From: Clostridiales bacterium
GTDB taxonomy: Bacteria > Bacillota > Clostridia > UBA1381
Reading direction: 5' to 3'
DNA length: 64,000 bases
NCBI GenBank assembly: GCA_029226975.1
Contig: JAQXZB010000099.1
Span: forward strand, 1 to 64,000
Position numbers and translations under genes: made by a program. Shown one piece after another: positions 1,304 to 6,079 of this stretch (positions within the stretch are counted from its first letter, which is position 1; each line of letters starts with the position of its first letter). Below the pieces are notes generated by a model. It made no database searches and was not told the origin of the DNA. It saw only the letters and a program-made list of their open reading frames with translations.

Positions 1304-3574
1304 TTATTGTACCGAACGGAATTTATAAAGCATGGAAGCCGCCTCCGCGCGCTTTACATTGCTTAACGGATGAATGGTATTATCCTCATAGCCGTTTATA
1401 ACTCCCTTTGCGGCAAGCTTGTTTATTCCCTCTCTTGCCCAATCGGGTATTTGTGCGCTGTCGGCAAAGCCCGCCTCCGGGGCATCCTCATCTGTGAGCC
1501 TGCCTATTATGGTCATTGCTTCGGCGCGGGTTATGGGGCTCATTGCGTCAAACACCACTCCGTCCTCGGCACTCTTACCGTTTATAATCCCCCTTGCATA
1601 CATCGCCTTAACGCAATTTCTCGCCCAATCGGGTATTTGCTCCTCATCGGCAAACACTGCCGGATCATCGGCGTATTCATTGCCGTTTACCCCCAAAAAT
1701 CGGGTCATTATAACAGCGTACTCGGCGCGGGTCATGTCATTGTCGGGATAAAATCTGCGTCCGTCATCACCGGTTACGCCGTAAATTATCCCCTCTGCCG
1801 CCATGGCTTCAACAATGTCCTTTGCCCAATGTCCGTCAAGGTCCTTAAAATTCATTTCTCCGCCTATTACAACAGGTATTTCCTTTACGGTATCGCCTAT
1901 GGAAACGGCAATTTTGCCGCTGCCCTGCTCCGTATCCCTTAAAACAAAATGTCCGTTAGAAGAAATCGTGCCTATATTTCCGCTGGTTCTCCATACAATG
2001 CTGTCCTCGCCCAGTTTTAGCTGTCTGCCCTCAACAAACGCCGCCGCGCACAAATCCAATTCCAGCTGCTCATTAGGCTCTGCGTATATTTCTGAAACCG
2101 CGCTCATGTTATCCTTTAAGTACACCCGCACCTCCTGGGGAGAATCATAAACGTTGCAGTTTAATACCGTACTTGCCGTATCTCCTGCCGTAACCGTTAT
2201 ATTCGCCACTCCGCCGGTGGTAAAGGTTACGGTATTTCCGTTCCCCTCGCCTATATCGCATGAGGCGTTTATGTCCTGTGACTCCATTTTATAATTTGCG
2301 GTATCGTACATACTCACAACGCTGACAACCGCCGTTGCACCTCTTAGGTAATCCTCGGCATCCAAGGCGGCATTTACAATCCAGGGAACTCCCGTAGGAG
2401 TGCGGTTATCCCTTAAGAATATGAAATTCGATACATTTCTCATGCTTCCGTCCGAGGGACTGTTTTTTAATTCAAAATTGTCCTCACCGCCCAAAAGCGC
2501 GCCGATTGTCGTTGAGCCGCCGCCGTCAAGATTTATCGCGTCCACGCAGCCCAGCTCCGCCATGCGCCTTGCAAGGGTTTCCAAGCGGCAACCGTAGCTG
2601 TAGCCCGACTGTCTGCCGTCTAAGGTATACATTATCAAATTGCCGTTTTCCTTGACTCCCACAGCTGTTCTGGGCGCCGCACCCTCCTCAAAGCCGGAGC
2701 ATATCTGTCCGTCCTTTATAAGCCTTGCACCGGTGGTGCTTGTGGCTTCAACGGCTGTTGCCCACTGATTTTTCTCGGAATTTATTGCTTCGTTTCTTAT
2801 AACGAACTCGTCACCCTTGGCAAGGGAGGATAAAAATGCGTAGCAGTCCGCATCACCGGAGGTGTCCATTAAAAGCACTATCTGATTTTCGGGGATTTGT
2901 ATGGCTCCCTCATAAATAAAGCTGTCCTCAACCGCAAGGGTCATATCCGTTCCGATTTTCATATCTCCGTCAACAACGCTGCAAAGCACGAATATACAGT
3001 TTCCCTCCGTGCGGGTCGAGTCCCCAAACTCCCTTGTAAGCATATAAATCGGGTCAAAGCCCCTCTGGCACCATTTGTTTATATACATAATCCTAACGGC
3101 GCTTTCGCCCTTTATTGCGGTAGTTTCCACTTCAAGATTGTCTATAAACGAGGTTCCGTCCTCACGAAAGCCTATTGCCGGCTGAGGCCCGAAATCCTTT
3201 GAGATAAGCCTGCCTCCGGAAATGCCGTATCCCATCTGCAAGCCCGTTTTAAAGGAAAAATAATCCGCGTTTATGCCCGCAACGCTTCTTATTCCCTGTG
3301 CGGCAAGATAATCCTTTGCCTCCAAGAGATTTTGCGTTCCCCAAAGCGATGCCCCGTTTACGATTACCGGAGTTGCCTCGGCATTTGGCTTGTATTCTAC
3401 ATAGTTTTCCGTCTGACGTCCGGCATTCCCGCCGTCAAACTGAACACGATGGAACACGCTGTATGCGCCCATGTCGTTATACACCTCGCCGCTAACGGTT
3501 CCCAAAACCTCGGCAAATGCCGCCGATGCGGTCATTGCCAGCACCAAAACCGCCGTAAATAGCATTTTTTTCAT
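1304..3574 (-). CDS. Secreted phosphodiester glycosidase-domain protein with three C-terminal SLH repeats
   Basis: The 756-aa product has a signal peptide ending near residue 21 (AFA) and a phosphodiester glycosidase (NAGPA/DUF2233) domain at roughly 80-390. Visible family motifs are GINADYF, PRTAVGVKENG, the DGRQSGYS stretch and NLDGGGSTT. A beta-rich Ig-like spacer follows (about 400-570), then three SLH repeats (about 575-755) each with a TRAE/KRAE core. NAGPA-type domains cleave sugar phosphodiesters; in Firmicutes they are linked to exopolysaccharide and wall teichoic acid turnover. SLH repeats bind pyruvylated secondary wall polymer and would hold this enzyme at the cell surface. Its true substrate cannot be read from the sequence. 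Consensus sigma-A promoter at 3614-3642; spoIID follows downstream. Confidence 0.88.
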   Translation of the reverse strand: MKKMLFTAVLVLAMTASAAFAEVLGTVSGEVYNDMGAYSVFHRVQFDGGNAGRQTENYVEYKPNAEATPVIVNGASLWGTQNLLEAKDYLAAQGIRSVAGINADYFSFKTGLQMGYGISGGRLISKDFGPQPAIGFREDGTSFIDNLEVETTAIKGESAVRIMYINKWCQRGFDPIYMLTREFGDSTRTEGNCIFVLCSVVDGDMKIGTDMTLAVEDSFIYEGAIQIPENQIVLLMDTSGDADCYAFLSSLAKGDEFVIRNEAINSEKNQWATAVEATSTTGARLIKDGQICSGFEEGAAPRTAVGVKENGNLIMYTLDGRQSGYSYGCRLETLARRMAELGCVDAINLDGGGSTTIGALLGGEDNFELKNSPSDGSMRNVSNFIFLRDNRTPTGVPWIVNAALDAEDYLRGATAVVSVVSMYDTANYKMESQDINASCDIGEGNGNTVTFTTGGVANITVTAGDTASTVLNCNVYDSPQEVRVYLKDNMSAVSEIYAEPNEQLELDLCAAAFVEGRQLKLGEDSIVWRTSGNIGTISSNGHFVLRDTEQGSGKIAVSIGDTVKEIPVVIGGEMNFKDLDGHWAKDIVEAMAAEGIIYGVTGDDGRRFYPDNDMTRAEYAVIMTRFLGVNGNEYADDPAVFADEEQIPDWARNCVKAMYARGIINGKSAEDGVVFDAMSPITRAEAMTIIGRLTDEDAPEAGFADSAQIPDWAREGINKLAAKGVINGYEDNTIHPLSNVKRAEAASMLYKFRSVQ

Positions 3575-3613: not shown

Positions 3614-3642
3614 ATTATAACATATTTATGCGGTTTTGTAAA
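3614..3642 (-). promoter_or_regulatory. Sigma-A promoter of the phosphodiester glycosidase-SLH gene
   Basis: Minus strand: TTTACA (3637-3642), 17-bp spacer, TATAAT (3614-3619), about 40 bp upstream of the ATG at 3574. Confidence 0.7.
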
Positions 3643-3661: not shown

Positions 3662-3727
3662 TGTCGAAAAGTTTTTTTGCTTCGACAAGCGGATTCGACA
3701 TACTTTTCCCGGCTGTGGTAGTATAAT
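3662..3727 (+). promoter_or_regulatory. spoIIG promoter with three Spo0A boxes and a long -35/-10 spacing
   Basis: Three exact TGTCGAA / TTCGACA heptamers (the Spo0A~P box) lie at 3662-3668 (plus), 3681-3687 and 3694-3700 (minus sense). A TATAAT -10 is at 3722-3727. The only -35-like sequence, TCGACA (3695-3700), is embedded in the last box and sits 21 bp from the -10, instead of the usual 17. In Bacillus subtilis the spoIIG promoter likewise has an over-long spacer with Spo0A bound over the -35, so this architecture appears conserved. Confidence 0.8.
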
Positions 3728-3747
3728 AATTCCGAGGTGAGGAAGAT

Positions 3748-4521
3748 TTGGTAATATACGCTGATGAAATATTTATCGAAAACTTTGCGGGAGCATATGC
3801 GCTTTTGTATATAAGCGCAAGGCTTCTTCACCAAAGAGCAAGCGTGCCCAGACTGTGCGCCGCTTCCACCTTAGGAGCGGCGGCGGCTGCAGCAGGCTTT
3901 ATATACGGCGTAAATCCGGGTATTTTTTCGTCCTTTGCCATGTTTGTCGCGGCATTCGGAATAAAATCAGGATTTTTTTTGCAGAATATTGTTGTATTTT
4001 CTGTACTGAAAATCATGACCGGATTTTTCGCGTCTGTGTTATGCTCCGCCCTCGGAGCGGGTATAATCAGAAACGGTATAGCATACTTTCGCTTAAATCC
4101 CGCCGTTATGGTCATATCTCTTTGCATTGCGTATCCGTTAAGCGCGGCGGCGGTAAATATTTTTAACAAAAGGCTAAAAAAACGGCTCTGCCGCTTAAAA
4201 ATCACCGCAAATGAAAAAACCGTCGAAACAACGGCGGTTTTCGACAGCGGAAATCTGCTTACCGAGCCTGTGTCGGGCAAAAGCGTGATAGTAACCGACA
4301 GGTCACTGCTTGCCCCGCTTTTCCCCGGCGGGATAGACCGTATTTTAAATGACCCGGTAAAACATGGTCTGCGGCTCATTCCCTACAGTACGGTTTCCGG
4401 CGCGGGAGTGATGCCGGCATTTTTGCCGGATGAGGTTTCAATAGACGGTCGGATAAATACCGGGGTATATATAGGCATAAGCCCAAAGCGGCTCAAATAT
4501 GGCGCATTAGTCGGCGCATAG
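3748..4521 (+). CDS. spoIIGA: Sigma-E processing peptidase SpoIIGA
   Basis: SpoIIGA is the membrane-embedded aspartic protease that removes the pro-sequence of pro-sigma-E in the mother cell once it is signalled from the forespore by SpoIIR. The 257-aa product has about five hydrophobic segments in residues 1-150, then a soluble aspartic-protease-like domain with the catalytic Asp in VFDSGNLLTEP (about residue 165). The C-terminal IGISPKRLKYGALVGA fits the family end. It is shorter than the Bacillus protein (about 309 aa) but all expected elements are present. The start is TTG, preceded by GAGGTGAGG at 3734-3742. sigE begins 12 bp downstream, the standard spoIIG operon. Confidence 0.93.
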   Translation: MVIYADEIFIENFAGAYALLYISARLLHQRASVPRLCAASTLGAAAAAAGFIYGVNPGIFSSFAMFVAAFGIKSGFFLQNIVVFSVLKIMTGFFASVLCSALGAGIIRNGIAYFRLNPAVMVISLCIAYPLSAAAVNIFNKRLKKRLCRLKITANEKTVETTAVFDSGNLLTEPVSGKSVIVTDRSLLAPLFPGGIDRILNDPVKHGLRLIPYSTVSGAGVMPAFLPDEVSIDGRINTGVYIGISPKRLKYGALVGA

Positions 4522-4533
4522 GAGGAAAATCAT

Positions 4534-5241
4534 ATGATGAAATTATTAAAAAGGCTTAATCCGCAAGTATTATTCCGCGGTGTTGCCGATGACGGAATTT
4601 TCTACATAGGCGGCAGCGACACACTGCCCGCCCCGCTCTCAAAGGAGGAGGAAGCCATGCTCACATCAAGACTGGAGAGCCAAGATAAGGAGGTAAAAAC
4701 CAAGCTTATAGAGCATAATCTGCGGCTTGTGGTATACATTGCCCGCAAGTTTGAAAATACCGGGATATGCGTAGAGGACTTAATATCCATAGGCACCATA
4801 GGACTTATAAAGGCAATAAACACCTTTAAGCCCTCAAAAAACATAAAGCTTGCCACTTACGCCTCCCGATGCATAGAAAACGAGATACTCATGTATCTTA
4901 GGAAAAACTCGAATATGCGCACCGAGGTGTCCATAGACGAGCCGCTTAACGTTGACTGGGACGGAAACGAGCTGCTTCTCTCGGATATTTTGGGCACCGA
5001 CAACGATGTGATATGCAAAAATATCGAGGATGAGGTGGACAAATCACTTTTAAAAACCGCCCTTACCAAGCTCACGCGCCGGGAACGCGCCATTATGGAA
5101 ATGCGCTTTGGGCTTGGCGATAAAAAAGAAAAGACCCAAAAGGAGGTTGCCGACGTTTTAGGCATCTCCCAATCCTACATATCGCGCCTTGAAAAGCGCA
5201 TTATAGGCAGGCTGAAAAAGGAAATCTCACGCATGAGCTGA
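4534..5241 (+). CDS. sigE: RNA polymerase sigma-E factor, mother-cell sporulation sigma
   Basis: 235 aa. Sigma-E directs early mother-cell transcription and is made as an inactive precursor. The first 25-30 residues ([16 protein letters not shown] and following) match a pro-sequence that SpoIIGA would remove. Region 2 (about 55-125) contains [13 protein letters not shown] and [17 protein letters not shown]; region 4 (about 175-230) contains [15 protein letters not shown] and the helix-turn-helix [24 protein letters not shown] site precedes tandem ATG codons; the first is used here. Co-transcribed with spoIIGA; sigG follows after 67 bp with a hairpin in the gap. Confidence 0.95.
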
Positions 5242-5308: not shown

Positions 5309-6079
5309 ATGAACGGAAAAGTGGAAATATGCGGTGTAAATACCTCAAAGCTTCCCGTACTGTCGCGGGAGGAAAAGGAGGAGCTGTTTTTAAAGATAAA
5401 GGCGGGAGATAAAAAAGCCCGCGAAACCTTTGTACAGGGAAATCTCAGACTGGTTTTAAGCGTTATTCAGCGCTTTAACAACCGGGGCGAAAATGCCGAC
5501 GATCTGTTTCAGGTAGGCTGTATCGGACTTATAAAGGCAATAGATAATTTTGACCTTTCCCAAAACGTGCAGTTTTCAACCTATGCGGTGCCGATGATTA
5601 TAGGCGAAATACGCCGGTATTTAAGGGACAACAACAGCATAAGAGTGAGCCGTTCCTTAAAGGACATTGCCTACAAGGCGTTAAGGGTAAAGGAAAGGCT
5701 GGTAAATACCAATTCCAGAGAACCGACCATTTCCGAAATCGCAAAGGAGCTTGACCTGCCCAAGGAGGACGTGGTTTTCGCCCTTGACGCAATCGCCGAC
5801 CCGGTTTCGCTCTTTGAGCCGGTATACCATGACGGCGGAGAAGCGATTTTTGTCATGGACCAGGTAAAGGACACAAAAAACTCCGATGAGGTATGGCTTG
5901 AAAACATTGCCTTAAACGAAGCAATGCAGCATCTTGACGAGCGTGAAAAGCATATACTTGACCTGCGCTTTTTCAGGGGCAAGACCCAGATGGAGGTAGC
6001 CGAGGAAATAGGCATTTCCCAGGCACAGGTGTCGCGCCTTGAAAAGAACGCCTTAAAGCAAATGCGAAAATATGTATAA
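5309..6079 (+). CDS. sigG: RNA polymerase sigma-G factor, late forespore sigma
   Basis: 256 aa. Sigma-G drives late forespore genes after engulfment. The N-terminus NGKVEICGVNTSKLPVLSREE is the characteristic sigma-G start (KVEICGVNTSKLPVL). Regions 2, 3 and 4 follow: region 2 with GNLRLVLSVIQRF and DDLFQVGCIGLIKAIDNFDL, region 3 around residues 115-190, and the region 4 helix-turn-helix VAEEIGISQAQVSRLEKNAL. The longer frame from 5279 is not used because AAGGAGG (about 5294-5300) is correctly spaced only for the ATG at 5309. The gene converges on pheT with a shared hairpin terminator. Confidence 0.95.
   Translation: MNGKVEICGVNTSKLPVLSREEKEELFLKIKAGDKKARETFVQGNLRLVLSVIQRFNNRGENADDLFQVGCIGLIKAIDNFDLSQNVQFSTYAVPMIIGEIRRYLRDNNSIRVSRSLKDIAYKALRVKERLVNTNSREPTISEIAKELDLPKEDVVFALDAIADPVSLFEPVYHDGGEAIFVMDQVKDTKNSDEVWLENIALNEAMQHLDEREKHILDLRFFRGKTQMEVAEEIGISQAQVSRLEKNALKQMRKYV

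Follow-up and report, generated by a model that had tools for sequence, protein, structure and literature searches.

The spoIIG promoter of Bacillus subtilis is a sigma-A promoter activated by Spo0A~P, and the understanding of how Spo0A~P opens an over-spaced promoter rests almost wholly on this one species. The usual spacer between the -35 and -10 elements is about 17 bp. The region in front of spoIIGA in the window (the whole stretch of DNA analysed, 64,000 nucleotides) raises the question of whether the same kind of promoter is at work in a clostridial genome, and how far its layout has been preserved. The first-pass annotation had proposed that the spoIIG logic of Bacillus is kept here, with three exact TGTCGAA heptamers, an over-long spacer and direct control by Spo0A~P. 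We found that the window promoter is of this known kind in a clostridial layout, real and deeply conserved. It is very probably the clostridial spoIIG promoter, a sigma-A-dependent promoter that a 21-bp spacer locks and Spo0A~P opens. The features of the region are collected in Table 1.

Table 1. Promoter elements and genes of the spoIIG region, in window coordinates.
Feature	Position	Strand	Details
Divergent gene, NAGPA domain and SLH domains	1304..3574	-	PF09992, PF00395
Divergent promoter of the NAGPA/SLH gene	3614..3642	-	TTTACA, N17, TATAAT, TG in front
Spo0A box 1	3662..3668	+	exact TGTCGAA; start 32 bp 5' of box 3; orientation opposite to boxes 2 and 3
Spo0A box 2	3681..3687	-	exact (TTCGACA on +); start 13 bp 5' of box 3; N12 from box 1
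Spo0A box 3	3694..3700	-	exact (TTCGACA on +); overlaps -35 hexamer TCGACA 3695-3700
Spacer, -35 to -10	3701..3721	+	21 bp
-10 hexamer TATAAT	3722..3727	+	
Predicted transcription start	3732..3736	+	about 7 nt past the -10; inferred from sigma-A promoter geometry
Ribosome-binding site GAGGTGAGG	3734..3742	+	read from sequence
spoIIGA, sigma-E processing protease	3748..4521	+	TTG start, 257 aa; PF03419, 146 bits
sigE (pro-sigma-E)	4534..5241	+	235 aa; NF006158, 404 bits
sigG	5309..6079	+	TIGR02850, 477 bits; ATG 5309 preceded by AAGGAGG; mechanical ORF start 5279

All three heptamers are in place 5' of spoIIGA, as annotated, and the orientation of box 1 is opposite to that of boxes 2 and 3, a point absent from the annotation. 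Single TGTCGAA boxes are uninformative, because the 64-kb window contains nine exact copies against a shuffle mean of 5.8. When the window was simulated 600 times with a first-order Markov model, on the other hand, three heptamers never fell within 60 bp, which excludes chance. In terms of the core promoter, TCGACA matches TTGACA at five of six positions and lies exactly 21 bp 5' of TATAAT, while the hexamers at all other spacers from 14 to 24 bp match at no more than two of six. The annotated “only possible -35” therefore stands as the sole -35-like hexamer for TATAAT, but a second reading of the same hexamer, TCGACA-N18-TAGTAT, also exists. The promoter stands directly before spoIIGA, sigE and sigG and would drive them. 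Its sigma-A -10 and -35 are separated by an over-long spacer (TCGACA-N21-TATAAT), and an exact Spo0A box lies on the -35.

As for the surroundings, the promoter of the divergent NAGPA/SLH gene has ordinary spacing and is separate from the spoIIG promoter, with spoIID lying beyond that gene. The predicted leader is only about 14 nt long, with the ribosome-binding site at its 5' end (3728-3750), and similarly short distances from promoter to start are found in many genomes of the family. The window SpoIIGA scores 101 bits against NCBIfam TIGR02854, whose curated cut-off is 209.55, so automatic annotation by this model would miss it.

We matched SpoIIGA (PF03419) in 60 of 70 genomes of the family, in 84 of 95 when the whole order is counted together with the family, and in 178 of the 245 genomes taken from the class; the match is absent in ten of the 70 family genomes. 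The upstream regions scanned comprise 59 family rows (58 genomes), 24 further rows of the order and 108 class rows. From the family set, G049 was left out because its match is partial and G051 because it has no sequence upstream, and G014 contributes two rows. For the class, 110 of the 178 matched genomes were collected, and G128 and G265 were dropped for too little upstream sequence. One rule was applied to all rows, with any spacer of 15-25 bp allowed between a -35 or box and a -10.

Chosen freely under this rule, the spacer came out at 21 bp for 58 of the 59 rows of the family, a count that includes G014b, which has no box 1 and whose match may be due to chance. The same spacer was chosen in 17 of 24 rows from the rest of the order and in 81 of 108 class rows. 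Shuffles, preserving base composition only and not dinucleotides, gave about 2.4, 1.0 and 4.6 rows at 21 bp, respectively (around 4%), and when the scan was moved to a control stretch, 400-700 bp 5' of spoIIGA, none of 80 was at 21 bp. The remaining 27 class rows include seven without any candidate promoter. Since related genomes are not independent, we also counted by family: in 46 of the 55 sampled, one or more spoIIGA promoters have the 21-bp spacer, and in 43 the majority do. A register held in 46 of 55 families indicates a lock under strong selection. The preservation of an over-long spacer with a Spo0A box on the -35 is thus much wider than the annotation had claimed. A loss of the boxes in close relatives, which would have told against the annotation, is not seen: both same-genus genomes keep boxes 1 and 2 exactly, box 3 at six of seven positions and the 21-bp spacer. 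We found no literature report of a class-wide 21-bp spoIIG spacer by title or abstract opening, where coverage is sparse for subscription journals, and no priority is claimed.

Some promoters keep this core in unusual positions. In G003 (L037) the distance between an intact promoter and the spoIIGA start is 151 bp, compared with 21 bp in the sister genome G005 (L038), and it looks as if DNA had been inserted 3' of the -10. Two others (L374 in G118, L379 in G151) lie 462 and 422 bp 5' of the SpoIIGA match and do not adjoin it. An apparent loss of the promoter in genus g24 was rejected: with TATACT allowed, G082 and G087 read TTTGACA-N21-TATACT. Boxes 1 and 2 are gone in rows of this genus such as these, and the 21-bp core is kept.

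The upstream boxes are less constant than the core. With promoters anchored on box 3, so that the other two offsets played no part in the anchoring, -32 (plus strand) and -13 (minus strand) outrank every other offset in the family, in the rest of the order and in the class, and these are the window's own spacings. At a match of at least six of seven positions, box 2 (-13) is found in 48 of 58 family promoters, 7 of 17 from the rest of the order and 17 of 81 from the class, and box 1 (-32) in 38 of 58, 3 of 17 and 6 of 81. Relaxing the threshold to at least five of seven brings the 81 class promoters with spacer 21 to 15 for box 1 and 21 for box 2. Since these two boxes are often unrecognisable outside the family, all three boxes are not required everywhere. 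Box 3 itself reads TTTGACA in 36 of the 58 family promoters. Genus g15 (L040, L041, L045, L047-L049) has lost the middle box and acquired another plus-strand box, mostly TGTCAAA, 11 bp after box 1; its 21-bp core is the same. Because the upstream boxes are so often missed outside the family, the constant core is box 3/-35, N21 and the -10, and the remaining layout has turned over.

The core together with box 2 is also specific within whole genomes. Searching TTCGACA-N6-TTNNACA-N(10-30)-TATAAT in 70 family genomes gave 40 matches, with 0 for the reversed control. Spacer 21 accounts for 38 of them, whose coordinates place 35 at spoIIGA and three at spoIIE. A looser pattern in 391 class genomes gave 29 matches (control 1), and 24 of these have spacer 21, namely 22 at spoIIGA, one at spoIIE and one at a phaE-like gene. 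The five with other spacers, in the same 391 genomes, include none near spoIIGA or spoIIE. Both patterns are strict, with matches in only 38 of 70 family and 27 of 391 class genomes, and for this reason the searches show specificity and not prevalence. The exact 21-bp register yields a search pattern of sufficient precision to locate commitment promoters in the raw sequence of spore formers not yet studied. The phaE-like case (L385, G429:C1:515002-515048) places box 2, box 3, N21 and TATAAT before a gene for a poly-hydroxyalkanoate synthase subunit (PF09712), possibly a third target of this type of promoter.

The window resembles B. subtilis spoIIG in its operon, in the Spo0A box over a -35-like hexamer and in the over-long spacer. 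Bacilli were reached from the solved Spo0A DNA-binding domain, through 80 named loci, and 30 genomes were used, with SpoIIGA in all 30. Their spoIIGA promoters use TATACT as the -10; 14 have a spacer of 21 bp, 13 of 22 and one of 24, and two lack a candidate. The spoIIG promoter is TTGACA-N22-TATACT in Bacillus sp. SKDU12, a strain with the Spo0A DNA-binding domain of B. subtilis (100% identity to PDB 1lq1 across the query). Taking the B. subtilis spacer through this genome, the window differs from it by 21 against 22 bp and by TATAAT against TATACT. The offset of the middle box from box 3 is 13 bp in Clostridia, against 10 bp in Bacilli. The inverted distal box that the window and its family have at -32 is weak or absent in Bacilli, where the strongest upstream box is at -53. 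The window, at 21 bp with boxes at -13 and -32, thus falls outside the Bacillus sub-type of box layout, which has 22 bp with boxes at -10 and -53. What the annotation recognised as Bacillus logic holds for the box on the -35 and the over-long spacer, and does not extend to the arrangement of the boxes.

A further comparison is offered by Clostridioides difficile, where the available text of one report describes a mapped sigma-A promoter at spoIIGA with GTGACA and TATAAT boxes, and sigE expression down 240-fold in a spo0A mutant (PMC3789822). The sigma-A promoter with TATAAT and the strong Spo0A dependence of sigE are both as expected for the window promoter. The two differ in the boxes: in the accessible part of a second report, the Spo0A DNA-binding domain binds the C. 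difficile spoIIGA region only weakly (>200 nM) and no consensus 0A box was found there (PMC3485338).

We infer the following course of events at the window promoter. RNA polymerase would reach the -35 at box 3 without being able to hold it and TATAAT together. Spo0A~P would then occupy all three boxes: boxes 2 and 3, which share one orientation at an offset of 13 bp, and box 1, which is inverted. On box 3 it would take over the -35, contacting sigma-A region 4, either displaced or redirected, and the polymerase would settle about 4 bp downstream, on TATAAT. This repositioning is modelled on B. subtilis spoIIG, where the polymerase is reportedly moved by Spo0A~P. In support of the model, 0A~P is described in the available text as working at that promoter after closed-complex formation (PMC12090719). 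The window's genome (G000; L203) has one Spo0A_C match, an intact domain at 156 bits, and its Spo0A is close to the B. subtilis DNA-binding domain. The C-terminus of sigma-A, read from the DNA, is KALRKLRHPSRS plus a short tail, and keeps KxxH, which we take to be the Spo0A contact. Judged by their sequences, both proteins look competent for activation of the spoIIG type, and it is plausible, as the annotation had it, that the promoter would need no other activator. Against the main reading speak the weak Spo0A binding in C. difficile, the frequent lack of recognisable boxes 1 and 2 outside the family, the exchanged middle box of genus g15 and the 27 class rows with an outcome other than 21 bp.

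Three other explanations of the same geometry were weighed. It is very improbable that the shape of the spacer DNA, through the conserved AA-TTTT tract that follows the -35 or through runs of T lying between boxes 1 and 2, offsets its length, with Spo0A only adding to a promoter that already works. The class consensus does run on from the -35 as TTTGACA-aatTttT, with a T-run upstream of box 3, and 35 of 58 promoters in the family and 24 of 81 in the class combine a perfect TTGACA with a perfect TATAAT; the family pairs may also fit limitation by something other than Spo0A, which weighs against our main reading. However, DNA shape leaves unexplained both the fixed offsets of the boxes at spoIIGA and spoIIE and the strong spo0A dependence of C. 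difficile sigE in the available text of PMC3789822.

It is likewise very improbable that the true promoter is normally spaced, with TCGACA at 3695 paired over 18 bp to TAGTAT (3719-3724) through an extended -10 (TGG) and the 21 bp as a coincidence of register. Both scans list this combination in the window, although its -10 is the weaker one, and it requires TAG before TATAAT. Among the 58 family promoters the triplet is GAG in 22, TAG in 18 and others in the rest, whereas 55 have an exact TATAAT; class promoters most often have TTG, TTA, CTG or ATG as this triplet. This register is not conserved in relatives and was rejected, and the mapped C. difficile promoter is itself described with TATAAT in the accessible text (PMC3789822). 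Least credible of the three is that the boxes serve chiefly for repression or to set a threshold, with a different factor activating the promoter: a box over the -35 is the classic position for repression, and Spo0A is generally known both to repress and to activate, but a 21-bp spacer leaves no unaided working promoter to repress, the family promoters have no further strongly conserved block 5' of box 1, and C. difficile sigE falls 240-fold without spo0A (PMC3789822, available text).

The geometry of the 21-bp promoter extends to spoIIE, for which we used 50 genomes out of 69 from the family and 65 out of 99 from the class. In the family, the spoIIE promoter is like that of spoIIGA, TGTCGNN-N12-TTCGACA-N6-TTNGACA-N21 followed by the -10, with spacer 21 in 37 of 50; in the window's genome it is TGTCGAA-N12-TTCGACA-N6-TTTGACA-N21-TATTAT. 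The class-wide case is weaker, with 21 bp in 40 of 65 genomes and 24 of 34 families, and 11 genomes without a candidate. At this level the boxes are weaker, and the middle box was not seen in the 65 genomes. The 21-bp lock is common to spoIIG and spoIIE and is older than the box arrangement around it.

The two promoters differ in their -10 elements. An extended -10 (TGn) was rejected as an explanation at spoIIGA, where only 11 of the 58 promoters in the family and 4 of the 81 in the class have it, in contrast to 35 of 37 family spoIIE promoters. This difference suggests distinct Spo0A~P thresholds, with a lower one predicted for spoIIE.

Unlike spoIIGA, spoIIE has a mirror-image fourth box in 12 of 37 family genomes (for example L218, L211, L228 and L231). 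This box, TTTGACA, is the -35 of a divergent promoter with a 17-18-bp spacer. A -10-like hexamer at that distance was read by eye in all 12; a script placed seven at 17-18 bp and five at 12 bp, for which TATAGT at 17 bp is the better reading. The divergent gene reads as a metallophosphoesterase in nine of the 12 and in G033, and one of these proteins, compared with Pfam, matched PF12850 at 103 bits. In the other three, the script returned a longer downstream ORF. In G033 (L214, L462) one set of boxes, by eye, faces both spoIIE, at 21 bp, and the phosphoesterase gene, at 17 bp. A corresponding role of box 1 as operator of a mirror promoter at spoIIGA was rejected, with a mirror box at six or more of seven positions in 0 of 58 family promoters and an ordinary promoter of its own for the divergent gene of the window.

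TGTCGAA-N12-TTCGACA is an inverted repeat and a symmetric candidate Spo0A operator. We tentatively propose, as an idea with somewhat less than even chances, that the spacer sets the sign of the switch: Spo0A~P on one symmetric operator would open a promoter at 21 bp and shut one at 17-18 bp, the 21-bp lock being the ancient register of spoIIG and spoIIE across Clostridia and in part of Bacilli. The divergent promoters beside spoIIE provide a natural experiment on activation versus repression by spacing. Lastly, in the window's own genome (L238, G000:C36:127600-128183) the gene divergent from spoIIE reads by eye not as a phosphoesterase but as a short DNA-binding protein of the AbrB/MazE type.
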